From positions 62,001 to 126,000 of the forward strand of contig CANJBY010000001.1 of assembly GCA_947472735.1 (NCBI GenBank): a stretch of DNA of 64,000 nucleotides, in the 5' to 3' direction. Below, piece by piece: positions 16,355 to 62,787 of this stretch; the first letter of the stretch is position 1; every line of letters starts with the position of its first letter. Below the pieces are notes generated by a model. That model saw only the letters and a list, made by a program, of their open reading frames with translations. It was not told where the DNA came from and searched no databases. This stretch comes from Sphingomonadaceae bacterium. Its GTDB lineage: Bacteria; Pseudomonadota; Alphaproteobacteria; Sphingomonadales; Sphingomonadaceae. A program made the translations under genes and the position numbers.

Positions 16355-16405
16355 GGCCGCACGTGTTCCTGTAATGTTCCACCACGAATCGCTATGGAGG
16401 AACTG

Positions 16406-16780
16406 ATGATCGGCTATGTGACCCTGGGCACGAACGACCGCGAACGCGGAGCGAAGTTCTACGATGCAATTTGCGGCGAGCTTGGCGTCGGGCGGATGGG
16501 TGAGAATGTGACGTTCATTTCCTGGGGAGTGCCGGGCGGTGCGGCAGGGATCGGTCTTACCACGCCGTTCGACGGCAAGCAGGCGACGGTCGGCAACGGC
16601 GTAATGGTGGCGCTTGAGGCAAGCGACGAAGCACAAGTGCGACGCCTGCATGAGATCGCATTGGCCAATGGCGGGACTTGCGAAGGCCCTCCGGGCGAAC
16701 GCTTCGAAGGATTTTACGCCGCGTATTTCCGCGATCCCGATGGCAACAAGCTTAACGCCTTCGTGATGGCTGCAGAATGA
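16406..16780 (+). CDS. VOC family (glyoxalase-like) protein
   Basis: MIGYVTLGTNDRERGAKFYDAICGELG...FRDPDGNKLNAF; GGAGG at 16396-16400. Confidence 0.9.
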   Translation: MIGYVTLGTNDRERGAKFYDAICGELGVGRMGENVTFISWGVPGGAAGIGLTTPFDGKQATVGNGVMVALEASDEAQVRRLHEIALANGGTCEGPPGERFEGFYAAYFRDPDGNKLNAFVMAAE

Positions 16781-53211: not shown

Positions 53212-56055
53212 CTACTCCGCCGCCTCGGTCAGGATACGCCGGCTCTTCTCTGACCAGCTGGCATAATCTTCCTGCCAGTCGGTAGGCCCGTTCGAGGGCA
53301 ATATCTGCACCGCCGTCACTTTGTATTCCGGGCAGTTGGTCGCCCAGTCCGAAAACTCGGTGGTGACGACGTTGGCCTGCGTCGCGGGGTGGTGGAAGGT
53401 GGTGTAGACCACACCCGGCGCGACCCGATCCGTCACGGTCACGCGCAGGGTCGTCTCGCCGGTGCGGCTCGCAAGCCGCGCCCAGTCGCCGTCCTTGAGC
53501 CCGCGGTTCTCGGCATCGGTCGGATGCATTTCGAGCAGATCCTCGGGATGCCACACAGTGTTGGCCGTACGCCGGGTCTGGGCGCCGACGTTGTACTGAC
53601 TGAGGATGCGCCCGGTGGTCAGCAGCAGCGGGAAGCGCGGTCCGGTCTTTTCGTCGGTCGGGACGTAGTCGGTGACCATGAACTTGCCCTTGCCGCGGAC
53701 GAAGCCGTCGACATGCATGATCGGCGAGCCATTGGGGGCCATGTCGTTCACCGGCCATTGCAGCGAACCTTCAGCCTCAAGCCGCGCGAACGAGACGCCG
53801 GCGAAAGTCGGCGTCAGGCGCGCGATCTCGTCCATTACCTCGCTCGGGTGAGTGTAGGTCCAGCCCAGTCCCATGGCATTGGCAAGCGCCTGGGTGACTT
53901 CCCAGTCCTCTAGCCCATTGGCCGGTTCCATCACCTTGCGGACCATCTGGATGCGGCGTTCGGCGTTCGTGAAGGTGCCGTTCTTTTCAAGGAAGGTAGA
54001 ACCCGGCAGGAAGACGTGCGCGTAGTTCGCAGTCTCGTTGAGGAACAGGTCGTGGACGATGACCAGTTCCATCGCCTTGAGTCCGGCGGCCACGTGGTGG
54101 GTGTTCGGATCGGACTGGAGGATATCCTCGCCCTGCACATACAGCGCCCGGAAGCTGCCATCGACCGCAGCATCGAGCATGTTCGGGATGCGCAAGCCGG
54201 GCTCCGGATCGAGCTCAACGCCCCAATCTGCCTCGAACTGCTTGCGCACGGCCTCGCCGGAGATGTGGCGATAGCCGGGCAATTCGTGCGGGAAGCTGCC
54301 CATGTCGCAGGCGCCCTGCACGTTGTTCTGGCCGCGCAGCGGGTTCACGCCGACGCCGCGGCGGCCGATATTGCCCGTGACCATCGCCAGGTTGGCGATC
54401 GACATGACGGTCGAGCTACCCTGGCTGTGCTCGGTCACGCCCAGCCCGTAATAGATTGCGCCGTTGCCGCCGGTGGCGAACAATCGGGCAGCCTTGCGCA
54501 GCTCATCGGCCGAAACGCGAGTAACCGGTTCAAGCGTCTCGGGCGAATGGCGCTCTTCAGAGACGAACTGCGCCCAGTCCTGATACTCGTCCCAATCGCA
54601 GCGCTCCTTGATGAAGGCTTCATCGGCGAGCCCTTCGGTCACGATGACGTGGGCCATGGCGGTAAGCACCGCGACGTTGGTGCCCGGCTGCAGCGGCAAG
54701 TGATGCTCAGCTTCGATATGAGGCGAACGCACAAGATCGATCCGGCGCGGGTCGATCACGATCAGCTTAGCGCCCTGCCGCAGGCGGCGCTTCATGCGCG
54801 AGGCAAACACGGGATGCCCGTCGGTCGGGTTGGCGCCGATCAGCAGCATTACGTCGCTGTCCATCACGCTGTCGAAATCCTGCGTGCCGGCGCTGGTCCC
54901 GAAGGTCTTCGACAAGCCGTATCCGGTCGGCGAATGGCAAACACGGGCGCAAGTATCGACGTTGTTCGAACCGAAGCCCGCGCGGATCAGCTTCTGGACG
55001 AGGAAGGTTTCCTCGTTGGTGCAGCGGCTGGAGGTGATCCCGCCCAGCGCACGGGCGCCGTGCTTGGCCTTGATGTCCTGCAACCGGCTGGCGGTGTAGC
55101 CCAGCGCCTCTTCCCAGCTGACAACGCGCCACGGCTCGTCAATCGAATCGCGGATCATCGGCTTGGTCACGCGGTCCTGGTGGTTCGCGTAGCCCCAAGC
55201 GAAGCGGCCCTTGACGCAGGAGTGACCGCGGTTGGCCTTGCCGTCCTTCCAGGGCACCATGCGCACCAACTGCTCACCGCGCATTTCGGCGCGGAAGGTG
55301 CAGCCAACGCCGCAATAGGCGCAAGTGGTGATGACTGCACGTTCGGGCTTGCCGATTTCCTTGACGGCCTTTTCCTGCAGCGTCGCTGTCGGGCAGGCCT
55401 GAACGCAGGCGCCGCAGCTGACGCATTCCGAGCTTAGGAAATCGTCACCGGACTGTCCGGCACTGACCATGGAAGCGAAGCCGCGGCCCGAGATGGTAAG
55501 AGCCAGGGTGCCCTGCACTTCATCGCAAGCGCGCACGCAGCGCGAGCAGGCGATGCACTTCGACGGGTCAAAATCGAAATAGGGGTTCGAGATGTCGGTA
55601 TCGAGCCCGAGGTGATTGTCCCCCTCGTAGCCATAGCGCACGTCGCGCAGGCCGACCTGAGCCGCCGTATCCTGCAGCTCGCAATCGTTGTTGGCAGAGC
55701 AGGTCAGGCAATCGAGCGGGTGATCCGAGATGTATAGTTCCATCACCCCGCGCCGCAGCTTCTCGAGCCGGGGCGTCTGGGTGTGGACCACCATGCCATC
55801 CATCACCGGCGTGGTGCAGCTGGCAGGCGTGCCGCGCATCCCTTCGACTTCGACCAGGCACATCCGGCATGAGCCAAAGGCGGCCACGTTGTCAGTAGCG
55901 CAGAGCTTGGGAATCTGTCCGTCCACTTCGGCGGCAGCACGCATCACGCTGGTGCCGGCAGGCACGGTCACTGCACGGCCGTCGATTGTCAGCGAAATGC
56001 TGGTTTCCGACAGGACTTCGGGGGTGCCGAAATCGGCCTGGCGTTCATAGCCCAT
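53212..56055 (-). CDS. fdsA: NAD-dependent formate dehydrogenase alpha subunit
   Basis: 947 aa; 2Fe-2S and 4Fe-4S N-terminus, CAYCGVGCTFRAE, Mo-ligand Cys in CARVCHSPTGYGLS. Confidence 0.96.
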   Translation of the reverse strand: MGYERQADFGTPEVLSETSISLTIDGRAVTVPAGTSVMRAAAEVDGQIPKLCATDNVAAFGSCRMCLVEVEGMRGTPASCTTPVMDGMVVHTQTPRLEKLRRGVMELYISDHPLDCLTCSANNDCELQDTAAQVGLRDVRYGYEGDNHLGLDTDISNPYFDFDPSKCIACSRCVRACDEVQGTLALTISGRGFASMVSAGQSGDDFLSSECVSCGACVQACPTATLQEKAVKEIGKPERAVITTCAYCGVGCTFRAEMRGEQLVRMVPWKDGKANRGHSCVKGRFAWGYANHQDRVTKPMIRDSIDEPWRVVSWEEALGYTASRLQDIKAKHGARALGGITSSRCTNEETFLVQKLIRAGFGSNNVDTCARVCHSPTGYGLSKTFGTSAGTQDFDSVMDSDVMLLIGANPTDGHPVFASRMKRRLRQGAKLIVIDPRRIDLVRSPHIEAEHHLPLQPGTNVAVLTAMAHVIVTEGLADEAFIKERCDWDEYQDWAQFVSEERHSPETLEPVTRVSADELRKAARLFATGGNGAIYYGLGVTEHSQGSSTVMSIANLAMVTGNIGRRGVGVNPLRGQNNVQGACDMGSFPHELPGYRHISGEAVRKQFEADWGVELDPEPGLRIPNMLDAAVDGSFRALYVQGEDILQSDPNTHHVAAGLKAMELVIVHDLFLNETANYAHVFLPGSTFLEKNGTFTNAERRIQMVRKVMEPANGLEDWEVTQALANAMGLGWTYTHPSEVMDEIARLTPTFAGVSFARLEAEGSLQWPVNDMAPNGSPIMHVDGFVRGKGKFMVTDYVPTDEKTGPRFPLLLTTGRILSQYNVGAQTRRTANTVWHPEDLLEMHPTDAENRGLKDGDWARLASRTGETTLRVTVTDRVAPGVVYTTFHHPATQANVVTTEFSDWATNCPEYKVTAVQILPSNGPTDWQEDYASWSEKSRRILTEAAE

Positions 56056-56575
56056 GGCGGTTCTCCAATGCCTTCAAATCGGCGGGGGTGTTGATATTGG
56101 CGGAATGGACGGAGCGCGTCACCGCGCGAGCGCCGATCGCCTCGGCAAACTGGCGCATGGAATGGCGCCCTTCCGCAACGAGGATGGCATCGAGGTGCGG
56201 CGAGGCGGACGCAGGCCAGCGGCCCACCACCGGCTGATCGGCCAGATAGGATGGCGCGGGACCGAGCAGGTCGGGCAAGTCATCGGGCAAGTCCGCCGAA
56301 TCCACGCCGCAGGTCAGCACTTCATCATAACTTTCGTCGCGCGCGTGATGCAGGGCCGCCGCGATTCCGCCGAGCGGGCCCATGCCGGAACGGGGCGAAT
56401 CTGGCAGGGTCGGCGCGGGCGCTGTTTCACGGCCGATCACCACCACCATCTCGCACCAGCCCGAAAGCTGGTCCACCGCCCGGGCCAGCAGGGTACGTCC
56501 GCCCAGCTCGGCCAGCGCCTTGTCGCTGCCGAACCGCGTGGACTGACCGCCCGCAAGGACCGCGCCAAGCATCAT
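56045..56575 (-). CDS. mobA: Molybdenum cofactor guanylyltransferase
   Basis: GAVLAGGQSTRFGSDKALAELGGRTLLARAVDQL. Confidence 0.93.
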   Translation of the reverse strand: MMLGAVLAGGQSTRFGSDKALAELGGRTLLARAVDQLSGWCEMVVVIGRETAPAPTLPDSPRSGMGPLGGIAAALHHARDESYDEVLTCGVDSADLPDDLPDLLGPAPSYLADQPVVGRWPASASPHLDAILVAEGRHSMRQFAEAIGARAVTRSVHSANINTPADLKALENRHGL

Positions 56576-58089
56576 CAGCCGAAATCCTCCGGCCAGTGCT
56601 TGAGCGCGCTCATCACAGGATAGGGGGTGAACCCGCCCAATGCGCAGAGCGAGCCGAATTTCATCGTCTCACACAGGTCTTCCAGCAGGACGATGTCCTC
56701 GCCCCGGGTGCGGCCCGACTTCCGGGCATTATGCATCTGGGGCAGCGCCTCGACCGCATCGGCCATGACCTTGCCGCCCGCACGGATCCGGTCGATCAGC
56801 TCGACCCCGCGGGTCGAACCGATCCGGCACGGGGTGCACTTGCCGCAGCTTTCGGCCGCACAGAACTCCATCGCGAAACGAGCCATTGCGCCCATGTCCG
56901 CGCTGTCGTCGAATACGCTGATCCCGCCATGGCCGATCAGCGCATCGGCGCCGGCATAGGCCTCATAATCGAACGGGAGTTCGAACTGATCGGGATGGAT
57001 GTAAGCGCCGAGAGGACCGCCGACCTGCACCGCCTTGACCGGCCGGCCCGACGCCGTACCTCCGCCGATCTCGTTGACCAACTCGTCCAGCGTGATGCCG
57101 AAGGCCGTTTCGAACAGGCCGCCGTGCTTGATGTTGCCGGCGAGCTGGATTGGCATGGTCCCCTTCGACCGGGCAATACCCAGGCTATCGTAAAGCGAGG
57201 CGCCACCGGGCGTCAGGATGTGCGGGACTGCCGCCAAGGTCAGGACGTTGTTGACCACGGTCGGGCAGCCGAACAGGCCCTTCAGCGCAGGCAGCGGCGG
57301 CTTGGCGCGCACTTCGCCGCGCTTGCCCTCGATGCTGTTGAGCAGGGACGTTTCTTCGCCGCAGACATAGGCGCCGGCGCCAACGCGCACTTCAAGCTGG
57401 AACGGCGCAATCTTTGCCTCGGCCAGCGCAATTGCCGCGTTGAGCTTGGCGATGGCGTGGGGATATTCACTGCGAACGTAAATGTAGCCCTGGTCCGCGC
57501 CGACCGCGTATCCAGCGATGGCCATGCCCTCGATCAGCTGGAAAGGATCACCTTCCATCAGCATGCGGTCAGCAAAAGTGGCGCTGTCACCTTCGTCGGC
57601 GTTGCAGACGATGTACTTCTGCGCGCCCGGGGCATCGCCCACGGTCTTCCACTTGATCCCGGCCGGGAAGCCGGCGCCGCCGCGGCCACGCAGGCCCGAC
57701 TTGAGGACCTCGGCCACGACCTCGGCGGGAGCCATGCCCCGAGCGCGATCGAACCCGACCCAGCCGCCGGTTGCGGCATAGTCGTCAAGGCTGAGCGGAC
57801 GGGTCTTGCCGGCGCGGGCGAATGTCAGGCGCTGCTGGCAGGCAACGAAGGGATGCTGGGCAACCGGGCCAATCGCCTTGTCGCTGCTGCCGGCCAGAAT
57901 CGCGGGCACGTCCGCCGGAGTTGCAGGACCGAAACCCTGCCCGTCCACTTCGACCAGCGGCTCAAGCCAGTGCATGCCCCAGCTGGAAATACGCTCCACC
58001 GTGCAGCCGGCGCTTTCGAAAGCGGCCGCTACTGCGTCTGCGCCGCAAGCCAGTGCCAGCGCGTCGTCGGAAATGCGAACCGTGGTCAT
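56575..58089 (-). CDS. fdsB: Formate dehydrogenase beta subunit (NuoF-like)
   Basis: LRGRGGAGFPAGIKWKTVGDAPGAQKYIVCNADEGDSATFADR; AESCGKCTPCRIGSTRG. Confidence 0.95.
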   Translation of the reverse strand: MTTVRISDDALALACGADAVAAAFESAGCTVERISSWGMHWLEPLVEVDGQGFGPATPADVPAILAGSSDKAIGPVAQHPFVACQQRLTFARAGKTRPLSLDDYAATGGWVGFDRARGMAPAEVVAEVLKSGLRGRGGAGFPAGIKWKTVGDAPGAQKYIVCNADEGDSATFADRMLMEGDPFQLIEGMAIAGYAVGADQGYIYVRSEYPHAIAKLNAAIALAEAKIAPFQLEVRVGAGAYVCGEETSLLNSIEGKRGEVRAKPPLPALKGLFGCPTVVNNVLTLAAVPHILTPGGASLYDSLGIARSKGTMPIQLAGNIKHGGLFETAFGITLDELVNEIGGGTASGRPVKAVQVGGPLGAYIHPDQFELPFDYEAYAGADALIGHGGISVFDDSADMGAMARFAMEFCAAESCGKCTPCRIGSTRGVELIDRIRAGGKVMADAVEALPQMHNARKSGRTRGEDIVLLEDLCETMKFGSLCALGGFTPYPVMSALKHWPEDFG

Positions 58090-58508
58090 GCGTTTTGCAC
58101 CAGCTGGACTATGCCGGCTTCGTCGAGCCGGGCGTGAAGGGAATCGCCCACCCGCGCCGCGGGTCCCGAGCTGCACAGCCCCAGGCAATAAACAGTCTTG
58201 AGCTTTACCCGGTTCCCGGCCGCGTTTTCCGCTGCCGCGACCAGCGCCTCGACCCCGCGCGCCTTGCAGGCTTCAGCTCGGCACAGCTGCACTTCCGGGC
58301 GCGGATCATGGGTCTCGGTGAAGTCGTGATAGAAGCTGACCACCCCGTGGACCTCGGCTCGGCTGAGGTTCAGCGCGCGGGCGATGGTCGCCTCCGCCGC
58401 CGCATCGACGCAGCCGAACGCGTGCTGGACATCGTGCAGAATGGGCAGCAGCGCCCCCGGCCGGCCTGCGTGGCTGGCGATGATCTGGTCGAGACTGGCG
58501 TTATTCAT
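58086..58508 (-). CDS. fdsG: Formate dehydrogenase gamma subunit (NuoE-like)
   Basis: LLPILHDVQHAFGCVDAAAEATIARALNLSRAEVHGVVSFYHDFTETHDPRPEVQLCRAEACKARG. Confidence 0.95.
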   Translation of the reverse strand: MNNASLDQIIASHAGRPGALLPILHDVQHAFGCVDAAAEATIARALNLSRAEVHGVVSFYHDFTETHDPRPEVQLCRAEACKARGVEALVAAAENAAGNRVKLKTVYCLGLCSSGPAARVGDSLHARLDEAGIVQLVQNA

Positions 58509-58539: not shown

Positions 58540-59469
58540 TCAAATTGATTTATCTGAAGTTTGATAGAATTCCTCTATCAAATGCAGCGGGTCCAGCTGT
58601 TGCGCAGCCGTCAGACCAGCGCGCGGCATGGCTCCCAACGGATCGCGATTGACGACGACCAGCCCGATGCGGCGGGTATCGGCAGCCGGGATGATGGGCA
58701 CAAAGCGGCACCAGCCGAGCCCCTCGAGCAGTGCCGCATAGGCATCAGGTACGATCGAAACGAGCTCGGCGGCGCGCACCAGCGCGAACATCGCCACGTA
58801 ATTGTCCGAGATCGCAGCCGGGGTGACTGAAAGCCCATGCCGCGCAAATTGCCGATCGAGCATCCGGCGATACTGCATGCCCTGGTGCAGCAGGCACAAG
58901 GGCATCCCGGCCAGATCGCTCCAGCTGATCGACTCCCGCTCATCCAGACCCGCGCCGTTGCGCGCGATCGCGACAAACTGTTCATGGTGCAGCGGTGCGC
59001 TGAGCACATTGGCCGGCGGTTCGTGATCGAGATAAGTTAGTCCGGCATCGAACTCGTTGACCACCAGGCCCTGTTCGATTTCACGCGAGGTGCCGCTGGT
59101 CACCGACAGGGTCAGCCCCGGGTTGGCGCGCAGCAAGGCGCGGCCGAATGGTCCAACCAGCGGCTGCGCTGAGGGGATGGTGTAGAGCCGGAATTCACCG
59201 GTCAACGCTTGCGCGGTGGCGGCGGCGGCCTGAGTCAGTCCACGCACGGCGCCGAGGGTCTGCTCGGCCCAGGGCAGGATTGCCTTGCCGTGCTCGGTCA
59301 GCCCGATGAAGCGGCGGTCGCGCTCGACCAGGCGTTTGCCCAGCTCCTGCTCCAGCGCCGCAAGGCCTGCGGAAAGGGTCGGCTGGGATACGCCGCAGGT
59401 GCTCGCGGCAACGGCAAAATGCCGGCTGCGCGCCAGGGCAACAAAGTATCGCAGGTGCTGAAGCTGCAT
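58540..59469 (-). CDS. LysR-family regulator of fds operon
   Basis: 309 aa; MQLQHLRYFVALARSRHFAVAASTCGVSQPTLSAGLAALEQELGKRLVERD. Confidence 0.95.
   Translation of the reverse strand: MQLQHLRYFVALARSRHFAVAASTCGVSQPTLSAGLAALEQELGKRLVERDRRFIGLTEHGKAILPWAEQTLGAVRGLTQAAAATAQALTGEFRLYTIPSAQPLVGPFGRALLRANPGLTLSVTSGTSREIEQGLVVNEFDAGLTYLDHEPPANVLSAPLHHEQFVAIARNGAGLDERESISWSDLAGMPLCLLHQGMQYRRMLDRQFARHGLSVTPAAISDNYVAMFALVRAAELVSIVPDAYAALLEGLGWCRFVPIIPAADTRRIGLVVVNRDPLGAMPRAGLTAAQQLDPLHLIEEFYQTSDKSI
58560..58582. promoter_or_regulatory. Putative LysR operator TTTGATAG-N7-CTATCAAA (inside 3' end of lysR, 52 bp before fdsG)
   Basis: Perfect 8-bp arms; 18/23 identical to 59479-59501. Confidence 0.65.
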
Positions 59470-59511: not shown

Positions 59512-60345
59512 CTAGCGAAGCCTCGCTGCGTGCCACGCGACATGCTCGGCCATGAAGGTCGAGATGAAGTAATAGGAATGGTCGTAACCCGGCTGCATCC
59601 GGATCGTCGCCGGGATGCCAGCCTGTTCGCAGGCATCGACCAGCAGCTGCGTCTTGAGCTGATCGGCCAGGAAATTGTCGCCTTCGCCCTGATCGACCAG
59701 CAAGTCAGGCAGACGGGCGCCATCCTCGATCAGCGCACAGGCGTCATACTGCCGCCAGCCGGCCTTGTCGGCGCCGATGTAGCCGGTCAGGGCCTTTTTG
59801 CCCCAAGGGCAGTTCAGCGGTGAGACGATCGGCGCGAAAGCCGAGACCGAGCGGAACCGCCCGGGATTGCGCAGCGCGATGGTCAGTGCACCGTGCCCGC
59901 CCATCGAATGCCCGGTGACACCCTGCCGTCCCAGGTCCGCCATCGGGAACTCGGCGCCGATCAGCGCCGGGAGTTCCTGCTCGATGTAGGAGCGCATGTG
60001 GAAATGCGTGGCCCACGGCGCTTCAGTCGCGTCGACGTAGAAGCCGGCGCCCTTGCCGAAGTCATAGCCTTCGTCGTCCGGCACGTCATCACCGCGGGGG
60101 GACGTGTCCGGCGCGACGAAGATGATCCCCGCCTCGGCACAAGCCCCACGGAATTCGCCTTTTTCGGTGACATTGGCATGGGTGCAGGTCAGCCCCGAAA
60201 GGTACCACAGCACCGGAAGCTTCGCCCCCGGTGCATGATCGGGCACGAAGACCGAGAAAGTCATCGGCGTGCCGGTCGCGGTCGACTGGTGGGTATAGAC
60301 CCCCTGCATACCGCCGTGGCTGCGATTAAGGCTGACCTGATCCAT
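59512..60345 (-). CDS. fghA: S-formylglutathione hydrolase
   Basis: PVLWYLSGLTCTHANVTEKGEFR...VTGHSMGGHGALTIALRNPGRFRSVSAFAPIVSP. Confidence 0.96.
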   Translation of the reverse strand: MDQVSLNRSHGGMQGVYTHQSTATGTPMTFSVFVPDHAPGAKLPVLWYLSGLTCTHANVTEKGEFRGACAEAGIIFVAPDTSPRGDDVPDDEGYDFGKGAGFYVDATEAPWATHFHMRSYIEQELPALIGAEFPMADLGRQGVTGHSMGGHGALTIALRNPGRFRSVSAFAPIVSPLNCPWGKKALTGYIGADKAGWRQYDACALIEDGARLPDLLVDQGEGDNFLADQLKTQLLVDACEQAGIPATIRMQPGYDHSYYFISTFMAEHVAWHAARLR

Positions 60346-60351
60346 GTTAGC

Positions 60352-60726
60352 TCAGCCCAGCTGGCAGAACGTGCAAAGCTTGTTGCCGTCCGGGTCGCGC
60401 AGATAGGCGCCATAGGCATTGCCCGGAGCCTGAGGACGCGGTCCGGGGGCGCCTTCGCAAGTGCCGCCATTGGCGATGCCGGCGGCGTGCCAGGCATCAA
60501 CCTGTTCCTTGTTGGCGGCCGCGAAGCCGATCGTTCCGCCGTTGGCGGAAGTTGCAGGCTCACCATTGCCAGGAGCACCGACGCCGAAGGCGCCGCCGTT
60601 GTGCTGGTAGAAAGCTCGGCCGTTGTGCTCGGCACCGGCGTTGCCGCCCAGTGCCTGGAAGCAGGCGTCGTAGAACTGCTTGGCCTTGGCGACGTCGTTG
60701 GAGCCGACCATTACGTGGGTATACAT
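60352..60726 (-). CDS. VOC family protein (tandem copy 1)
   Basis: MYTHVMVGSNDVAKAKQFYDACFQALGG...YLRDPDGNKLCTF. Confidence 0.92.
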   Translation of the reverse strand: MYTHVMVGSNDVAKAKQFYDACFQALGGNAGAEHNGRAFYQHNGGAFGVGAPGNGEPATSANGGTIGFAAANKEQVDAWHAAGIANGGTCEGAPGPRPQAPGNAYGAYLRDPDGNKLCTFCQLG

Positions 60727-60773
60727 GATTAATCCTCTCTTGAGGGCTTGGGGGGGATGGAGGCCGACCGCGT

Positions 60774-61157
60774 TCACGCGGGTAGCTGGTAAATCGCGCA
60801 GAGCTTGTTCCCATCGGGATCGCGCAAATAGGCGGAAAAGACCTTGCTGGTCGGATAGGTGCGCTCGCCCGGAGGATCTTCAGCCGAAGTTCCGCCATTG
60901 GCGACCCCGGCATCATGCCAGGCGCGAACCTGTTCCACGCTGTCGAGATCAAGCGCGATGGTTCCACCGTTGGCAGGTGACGCGGGCTGACCGTTGATCG
61001 GCTTGCTGATCATCAGCCCTGCACCCTTGTTGCGATAGGCCAATGCTCCGCGCCAGTTTGGCTCGGCCGGCGGACAGCCCAGCACGCCCATGACCGCATC
61101 GTAGAACCGCTTTGACTGTTCAATATCGTTAGACCCAAGGACAACACTGCGAAACAT
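60774..61157 (-). CDS. VOC family protein (tandem copy 2)
   Basis: MFRSVVLGSNDIEQSKRFYDAVMGVLG...YLRDPDGNKLCAIY. Confidence 0.92.
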   Translation of the reverse strand: MFRSVVLGSNDIEQSKRFYDAVMGVLGCPPAEPNWRGALAYRNKGAGLMISKPINGQPASPANGGTIALDLDSVEQVRAWHDAGVANGGTSAEDPPGERTYPTSKVFSAYLRDPDGNKLCAIYQLPA

Positions 61158-61194
61158 GGCCAGGACTTTCAGTAGACTACATGATTGAGGCGAA

Positions 61195-61233
61195 GGCCGG
61201 CGCGCTCCGCCGAGGGAGCGATGCGCACCGGCC
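61195..61233. repeat. Imperfect inverted repeat between VOC copies 2 and 3
   Basis: GGCCGGCGCG (61195-61204) vs CGCACCGGCC (61224-61233), 9/10 complementary. Confidence 0.55.
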
Positions 61234-61250
61234 CTGTCGGGGCAAAGCCC

Positions 61251-61649
61251 TCAAACGAAGGTGTAAGCGCAAACCTTGTTGCCGGCGGGATCGCGCAGGT
61301 AGCCGGCGTAGGCGCCCGGCAAATGCCCGCGCGCGCCCGCGGCGCCTTCGTCGGTGCCGCCAGCGCCAAGACCGGCCGCATGGAAGGCATCGACCTCGGC
61401 CGGGGTGGCGGCAGCGAAACCGATCGTCACGCCATTGCCGGATGGAGCCTCGCCGTTACCCGGCTTGAGCACGAGGAACGCCGGCTTGTCCTTTCCGTAA
61501 AGGAAGCAGCTGTCGCCGAACGGGCCCATGTTCTTGATGCCCAGCGGTGCCAGTGCCGCGTCGTAGAATGCCGTCGACGCCGCCAGGTCGCTCGCGCCCA
61601 GGCAGGTATGCGAGAACACTTCGTTCCCTGAAATCACCGGATCAGCCAT
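61251..61649 (-). CDS. VOC family protein (tandem copy 3)
   Basis: NEVFSHTCLGASDLAASTAFYDAALAPLG...YLRDPAGNKVCAY. Confidence 0.92.
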   Translation of the reverse strand: MADPVISGNEVFSHTCLGASDLAASTAFYDAALAPLGIKNMGPFGDSCFLYGKDKPAFLVLKPGNGEAPSGNGVTIGFAAATPAEVDAFHAAGLGAGGTDEGAAGARGHLPGAYAGYLRDPAGNKVCAYTFV

Positions 61650-61674: not shown

Positions 61675-62787
61675 TCAGAACACCACGACCGAGCGGATCG
61701 ACTTGCCCGCATGCATCAGTTCGAAGGCGTCGTTGATTTCTTCCAGCCCCATGACGTGGGTGATCATCGGGTCAATCTGGATCTTTCCGGACATGTACAT
61801 GTCGACGATCTTGGGCACGTCGGTGCGGCCCTTGGCCCCGCCGAACGCGGTGCCGCGCCAGTTACGGCCGGTGACCAGCTGAAACGGACGGGTGGCAATT
61901 TCCTTGCCGGCTTCGGCCACGCCGATGATGATCGAGGTACCCCAGCCGCGGTGGCAGGCTTCCAGTGCGGTGCGCATCACTTCGGTGTTGCCAGTGGCGT
62001 CGAAGGTATAGTCCGCGCCACCGTCAGTCATCTCCACGATCTTCGCGACGGTTTCTTCGCGGCTCAGGCCCTTGGAGTTGAGGAAGTCGGTCATGCCGAA
62101 CCTGCGGCCCCAATCCTCGCGATCAGGGTTGATGTCGACGCCGATGATCTTGCCTGCGCCGGCCAGCCGTGCGCCCTGGATCACGTTGAGCCCGATCCCG
62201 CCGAGCCCGAAGACCACGACATTGTCACCCACCTGCACCTTGGCGGTGTTGACCACGGCGCCTACGCCGGTGGTCACGCCGCAGCCGATGTAGCAGCTGG
62301 ACTGGAACGGCGCGTCCTCGCGGATCTTCGCCACAGCGATCTCGGGGAGCACGGTGAAGTTCGAGAAAGTCGAGCAGCCCATGTAATGGAAGATTGTCTG
62401 CCCCTTGTAGGAGAAGCGCGAGGTGCCGTCCGGCATCAGGCCCTGGCCCTGGGTCGCGCGGATCGCGGTGCACAGGTTGGTCTTGCCCGAGAGGCACGAC
62501 TTACACTGGCGGCATTCCGGGGTGTAAAGCGGGATCACGTGATCGCCCGGCTTTACCGAAGTCACCCCCGGGCCGACCTCGCGCACGATGCCGGCGCCCT
62601 CATGGCCGAGGATCGAAGGGAAGATGCCCTCGCTGTCCAACCCGTCGAGCGTATAGGCATCGGTGTGGCAGATGCCCGTCGCCATGATCTCGACCAGCAC
62701 TTCGCCCGCCTTGGGACCTTCAAGGTCCACTTCAACGATCTCGAGCGGCTGCTTGGGCGCAAATGCAACGGCGGCGCGGGTCTTCAT
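61675..62787 (-). CDS. adhC: S-(hydroxymethyl)glutathione dehydrogenase / class III alcohol dehydrogenase
   Basis: 370 aa; [60 protein letters not shown]. Confidence 0.97.

Follow-up and report, generated by a model that had tools for sequence, protein, structure and literature searches.

Why are three small VOC proteins encoded between the two enzymes of glutathione-dependent formaldehyde oxidation? The window, which here means the whole analysed stretch of 64,000 nucleotides from a Sphingomonadaceae bacterium, carries on its minus strand from 62787 to 59512 the genes adhC, VOC3, VOC2, VOC1 and fghA in this order, followed by a LysR gene and formate dehydrogenase genes. The features are as follows.

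61675..62787, minus strand: adhC (frmA), S-(hydroxymethyl)glutathione dehydrogenase, a class III ADH of 370 aa (NCBIfam TIGR02818)
61251..61649, minus strand: VOC3, 132 aa, ortholog of the VOC of plasmid frm operons (identity, clade, AlphaFold fold)
61158..61250, minus strand: intergenic region between VOC3 and VOC2 with a 13-bp GC-rich hairpin (fold z -2.5; comparison with L009)
60774..61157, minus strand: VOC2, 127 aa, with the first VOC metal-ligand His changed to Ser (PF00903/PF18029 over the cut-off; GloA alignment)
60352..60726, minus strand: VOC1, 124 aa (PF00903 over the cut-off; match to PDB 4qb5, 136 bits)
59512..60345, minus strand: fghA, S-formylglutathione hydrolase, 277 aa (NCBIfam TIGR02821)
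58540..59469, minus strand: LysR-family regulator (many LysR models, all below the cut-off; neighbour in L009 80% identical)
58086..58508, minus strand: fdsG-like formate dehydrogenase gamma subunit (best NCBIfam match NF004638, below the cut-off)
56575..58089, minus strand: fdsB-like (NuoF-type) formate dehydrogenase beta subunit (NuoF-family match below the cut-off; lies between fdsG and fdsA)
53212..56055, minus strand: fdsA, formate dehydrogenase alpha subunit (NCBIfam TIGR01591, 924 bits, over the cut-off)

We took two equivalogs lying close together on one strand as defining a glutathione-dependent formaldehyde oxidation operon, and this is what adhC (617.8 bits to TIGR02818, cut-off 543.95) and fghA (400.8 bits to TIGR02821, cut-off 281.7) form here. 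The open reading frames, together with these equivalog matches, confirm an earlier note on this DNA that had placed three VOC genes between adhC and fghA on the same strand; of the sizes given there (125, 127 and 132 aa) the latter two are correct, while the first VOC protein has 124 aa when read from its ATG. The genes are separated by gaps of 25 bp (adhC-VOC3), 93 bp (VOC3-VOC2), 47 bp (VOC2-VOC1) and 6 bp (VOC1-fghA), and co-expression of the VOC proteins with AdhC and FghA is very probable. Since the fds genes lie downstream on the same strand as adhC and fghA, this stretch probably encodes the oxidation of formaldehyde via formate to CO2. Of 80 loci surveyed, 34 have such fds genes close to fghA, with no clear difference between those with a VOC in the slot between adhC and fghA (21/42) and those without (13/38). 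The regulator adjoining fghA in the window is of the LysR type and possibly controls the cluster; the plasmid operons described below are headed by an FrmR gene.

All three proteins can be assigned to the VOC superfamily by their PF00903/PF18029 matches or, in the case of VOC3, by its fold model. VOC1 and VOC2 lie above the PF00903 cut-off and VOC3 just below it (20.4 vs 20.6); the plasmid orthologs of VOC3 pass it, and the AlphaFold model of VOC3 (pLDDT 90.5) displays a clear VOC fold, with TM-scores of up to 0.88 to VOC structures. Of the other genomes surveyed, only that of Sphingomonadaceae bacterium RH-23may17-159 (L009) has these three VOCs, and dN/dS values (NG86) against its orthologs of 0.18 for VOC1, 0.03 for VOC2 and 0.05 for VOC3 indicate purifying selection on all three. 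Purifying selection on the VOC was also seen between diverged operon copies.

That the three proteins are divergent, as the earlier note had it, is borne out by the 48-49% identity of VOC1 to VOC2 and VOC3 and by a tree of 151 proteins, made by a quick method from few columns and with many forks unresolved, which distributes them over three clades. Window VOC3 and the plasmid VOCs form one set of 11 rows with a support of 98, VOC1 and VOC2 are placed in other clades, and each of the three clades also occupies the adhC-fghA slot elsewhere. A recent tandem duplication or triplication was rejected on the strength of these three clades with their separate single-copy occurrences; as judged from the tree, the array is a gathering of separate VOC lineages in one slot. 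Mapped on the tree, the slot label undergoes 13 changes, compared with 48.7 when labels are shuffled. Among the 112 subfamily members in the clade, 28 are not linked to adhC or fghA, and in the VOC3 clade this applies to one of 12 members (L134) within the 9 kb examined. The VOC3 ortholog in question (L134:5604-6002, 84% identity) is a solitary gene with a divergent LysR gene as its neighbour. In the genome under study, PF00903 was found at 18 places. The lone VOC gene of the window (16394-16780) belongs to another clade and was excluded from the set; relatives of it were observed as three tandem VOC genes at L140:3278-4433, in another genome of the same order, with no adhC or fghA nearby.

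The survey covered the 80 closest fghA loci from GTDB species; in 65 of them, adhC lies upstream within the same contig. In these 65 Sphingomonadales loci, the slot held no VOC in 28 cases, one in 30, two in three, three in three and four in one; in the VOC-free pairs, adhC and fghA are mostly 2-11 bp apart. At least one slot VOC was present in 37/65 Sphingomonadales pairs, compared to one of about 54 pairs drawn from class and phylum samples outside the family of the window (Fisher p ~1e-11, uncorrected for relatedness), a contrast that argues against occupancy by chance. Loci pulled by VOC searches revealed the adjacency outside this set as well, in other families, with adhC-VOC-fghA in L243 and adhC-VOC in L248, L138 and L139. 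Because the VOC is absent from most adhC-fghA operons outside Sphingomonadales, we regard it as accessory and dispensable for the pathway; the chromosomal frmRAB of E. coli has no VOC. The earlier note had made co-conservation of the VOC genes with adhC and fghA a test of its proposal, and such co-conservation is present in Sphingomonadales and on plasmids but absent in most other bacteria.

Other genes were also seen in the slot (L079:5135-5998, L195:5393-6256, L052:5474-5986, L068:1663-2169 and L057:1585-1941), encoding PurU-like formyltransferase-fold proteins, tRNA-editing-domain proteins and a cupin. In further sphingomonads, very strong hairpins with z down to -12, possibly REP-like elements, take up the space between adhC and fghA or that behind adhC (L024:5915-6000, L026:5910-6000 and L160:4221-4360). 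The hairpin between VOC3 and VOC2 in the window (61158-61250) keeps 13 of 13 pairs in L009, with one compensatory change, two one-sided changes and no broken pair, a comparison of two sequences that is suggestive of stem conservation. With no T run, it was rejected as a classical intrinsic terminator; it has no other copy in this genome, and is thus not a dispersed repeat, and it matches no Rfam family. It is possibly an attenuator or a processing site and may reduce read-through.

VOC genes of this kind are also found on plasmids, where a tblastn search with VOC1 matched 962 records. Besides pAsaXII, ten plasmids were inspected: six of them have a VOC directly behind frmA/adhC with fghA further down (E. 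coli and Enterobacter IncX5, Klebsiella IncX3 and IncN/IncR, Acinetobacter, and Sphingomonas, the last with two VOCs plus purU), and in the other four, from Pantoea, Roseomonas, Agrobacterium and Sphingobium, the VOC is unlinked. A 2756-bp Klebsiella operon matched 509 plasmid records by megablast, 408 of them with at least 80% coverage. Of 5426 E. coli genomes, 5384 matched the same operon but only 12 with at least 80% coverage, and among the matches listed, the chromosomal ones comprise frmR-frmA only. VOC3 shares 70-73% identity with the plasmid VOCs, carried by enterobacterial, Aeromonas and Acinetobacter operons, and takes the same position between adhC/frmA and fghA; by identity, position and clade support, it can be classified as an ortholog of the plasmid frm-operon VOC. 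The FrmR encoded beside the plasmid copies is annotated as a formaldehyde-responsive repressor. In L193 and L194 (IncX5), the frmR-adhC-VOC-fghA operon includes a DUF3422 gene and adjoins uvrB, in L193 also uvrA, and these surroundings may constitute an aldehyde-damage island. The linkage of VOC to adhC and fghA is real and recurs in separate lineages and on mobile operons, and on the strength of this linkage the VOC proteins are probably accessory parts of formaldehyde detoxification.

The adhC-VOC-fghA arrangement is already on record for plasmid pAsaXII of Aeromonas salmonicida (MF621618), the operon of which shows the same gene order as the window (PMC5736529). Its VOC and VOC3 are 72% identical across 132 residues, a stretch that takes in the N-terminal PVISG segment; differences are the single VOC instead of three, the FrmR repressor gene in front and a Thr in place of the Cys of the C-terminal motif. 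The strain with pAsaXII was reported to have a formaldehyde MIC of 0.01% versus 0.0025%, a fourfold difference that refers to the whole strain and not to the VOC alone (PMC5736529). In E. coli from methenamine users, plasmid frmAB homologues have been linked to formaldehyde resistance, with the VOC going unmentioned (PMC13029678).

As a criterion for glyoxalase I we used the four metal ligands H5, E56, H74 and E122 (E. coli GloA numbering). GloA belongs to the same superfamily as the window VOCs (profile match of 33 bits) but three of its four ligands are replaced in VOC1 and VOC3 and all four in VOC2: His5 is kept in the former two, which retain no other GloA ligand, and is Ser in VOC2, the Glu56 position is non-acidic, and the His74 position is occupied by Thr in the alignment to 4z04 and by Phe or Leu in the MAFFT alignment. 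Among 87 linked VOCs, the first ligand His is kept in 83, and the Glu122 position holds Cys in 82 and Thr in the others, so that conservation at both positions is incomplete. On account of the lost metal ligands, we rejected a canonical glyoxalase I and consider it unlikely that the proteins have ordinary glyoxalase activity. The Cys that follows the terminal motif corresponds, by alignment, to a former metal-ligand position. The motifs read as described before (DPDGNKLC, DPDGNKLC and DPAGNKVC, with Asn for Cys in the lone VOC), but the Cys does not serve as a mark of the set, being present in 80/84 linked and 25/27 unlinked members and replaced by Thr in the plasmid orthologs from Klebsiella and Aeromonas. 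Polar residues invariant in the family are D21, N72, T75, R107, Y117 and K125 (VOC3 numbering).

The top Foldseek match of VOC3 is PDB 4z04, a Brucella melitensis VOC which, by its title, is in complex with glutathione; it shows 35% identity in the structural alignment and a TM-score of 0.82-0.87, and is found by sequence as well (E 2e-16). In the sequence alignment, 4z04 still has His and Glu at the two positions taken in the window family by an invariant Thr and by Cys. By analogy to this structure, the window VOCs may bind glutathione. The closest solved sequence is the Albidiferax ferrireducens glyoxalase/bleomycin resistance protein (PDB 4qb5; 179 bits to the profile), which shares motifs with the window VOCs, including DPDGNKIC, and has an entry title that gives no specific function. 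Gfa has a proposed role at the same step as that suggested for the VOCs, the reaction of HCHO with GSH, but belongs to the unrelated family PF04828, while the Pfam matches of the window VOCs are PF00903/PF18029 only. Gfa catalysis is itself disputed (PMC4776306), and six GFA-family proteins are encoded elsewhere in the genome.

Our best explanation, to which we assign a probability of roughly 0.4, is that the three VOCs are accessory proteins of glutathione-dependent formaldehyde detoxification which aid the supply of S-hydroxymethylglutathione to AdhC. The VOC cleft would bind glutathione or its formaldehyde adduct, and the proteins would help in forming S-hydroxymethylglutathione, presenting it to AdhC or rescuing it for this enzyme, a role that has been proposed for Gfa; the copies would be variants that prefer different substrates or adducts and are retained as a variable array within a single slot. 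Handling of the glutathione-formaldehyde adduct is favoured because 4z04, the nearest protein by fold, was crystallised together with glutathione, and we infer that the VOCs might assist at the HCHO-GSH step. Counted in favour of this explanation are the 37/65 occupancy, the plasmid operons, the pairs in other families, the 13 vs 48.7 label changes, the orthology of VOC3 and the plasmid gene, the MIC of the pAsaXII strain, the dN/dS values, 4z04 and the formate dehydrogenase genes. Counted against it are the VOC-free operons outside Sphingomonadales, frmRAB of E. coli, unlinked members including L134, the incomplete His and Cys conservation, the six GFA-family proteins already in the genome and the spontaneous formation of S-hydroxymethylglutathione (PMC4776306). 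Of the earlier proposal, the connection to glutathione-dependent formaldehyde oxidation has gained from the recurrent linkage, the mobile operons and the glutathione-bound relative, whereas the glyoxalase I chemistry from which it had been derived is unlikely in its canonical form. A wider version, which we consider doubtful, is that the VOC subfamily with its degenerate metal site, so far without an assignment, would be an enzyme handling the GSH-formaldehyde adduct, by forming or opening S-hydroxymethylglutathione or cyclic adducts or by presenting them. The subfamily would have expanded in Sphingomonadales into an array of several divergent genes, and one of its members would have spread in the mobile formaldehyde-resistance operon as an unrecognised component.

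The lost metal ligands, the tolerated changes of Cys to Thr and His to Ser and the copy number of 0-4 would also suit non-catalytic binders, sequestering formaldehyde, glutathione or a reactive adduct, or scaffolding AdhC and FghA. Small VOC-fold binders exist in the form of the bleomycin and mitomycin resistance proteins, and 1kll is among the Foldseek matches of VOC3. The invariant D21, N72, T75, R107, Y117 and K125 suggest, however, a specific pocket, and we think binding of this kind unlikely. Action on other glutathione hemithioacetals, formed from methylglyoxal, glyoxal or aldehydes that accompany formaldehyde, appears distinctly unlikely, since of the four GloA ligands only His5 (VOC1, VOC3) or none (VOC2) is kept, and since the FrmR adjoining the plasmid copies is annotated as responding to formaldehyde. 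In that case FghA would act as the thioesterase, like glyoxalase II, of a broad aldehyde-detoxification operon, as might be expected from the VOC fold with its GSH-bound relative 4z04, from the ability of FghA-type esterases to hydrolyse S-lactoylglutathione and from the coupling of E. coli glyoxalase I to nemRA by readthrough (PMC3739934).

The same VOC subfamily repeatedly enters the slot, travels with frmR-frmA-fghA on plasmids and is under purifying selection between diverged operon copies, which makes it improbable that the slot just tolerates short genes downstream of a strong promoter, with VOCs of unrelated roles linked to the operon by hitch-hiking. The cupin, the tRNA-editing-domain protein and the PurU-like protein in the slot, the strong hairpins elsewhere and the large number of VOC genes in this genome (18 PF00903 places) are what such hitch-hiking would lead one to expect.

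In the open-access papers searched, we found no description of a multi-VOC array, of the variable occupancy in Sphingomonadales or of the orthology between VOC3 and the plasmid gene, and our literature search yielded no tested function for a slot VOC. Formaldehyde and formaldehyde-releasing agents, such as methenamine and disinfectants, face a resistance operon on plasmids for which frmRAB is the usual description. This plasmid operon often has a fourth gene, the VOC, which is missing from the chromosomal version of E. coli; in sphingomonads, relatives of this gene occur in arrays that vary. Should the VOC increase flux or tolerance, the pathway as it is usually drawn would miss one component, and the disputed assistance of HCHO-GSH condensation in cells would become directly testable.
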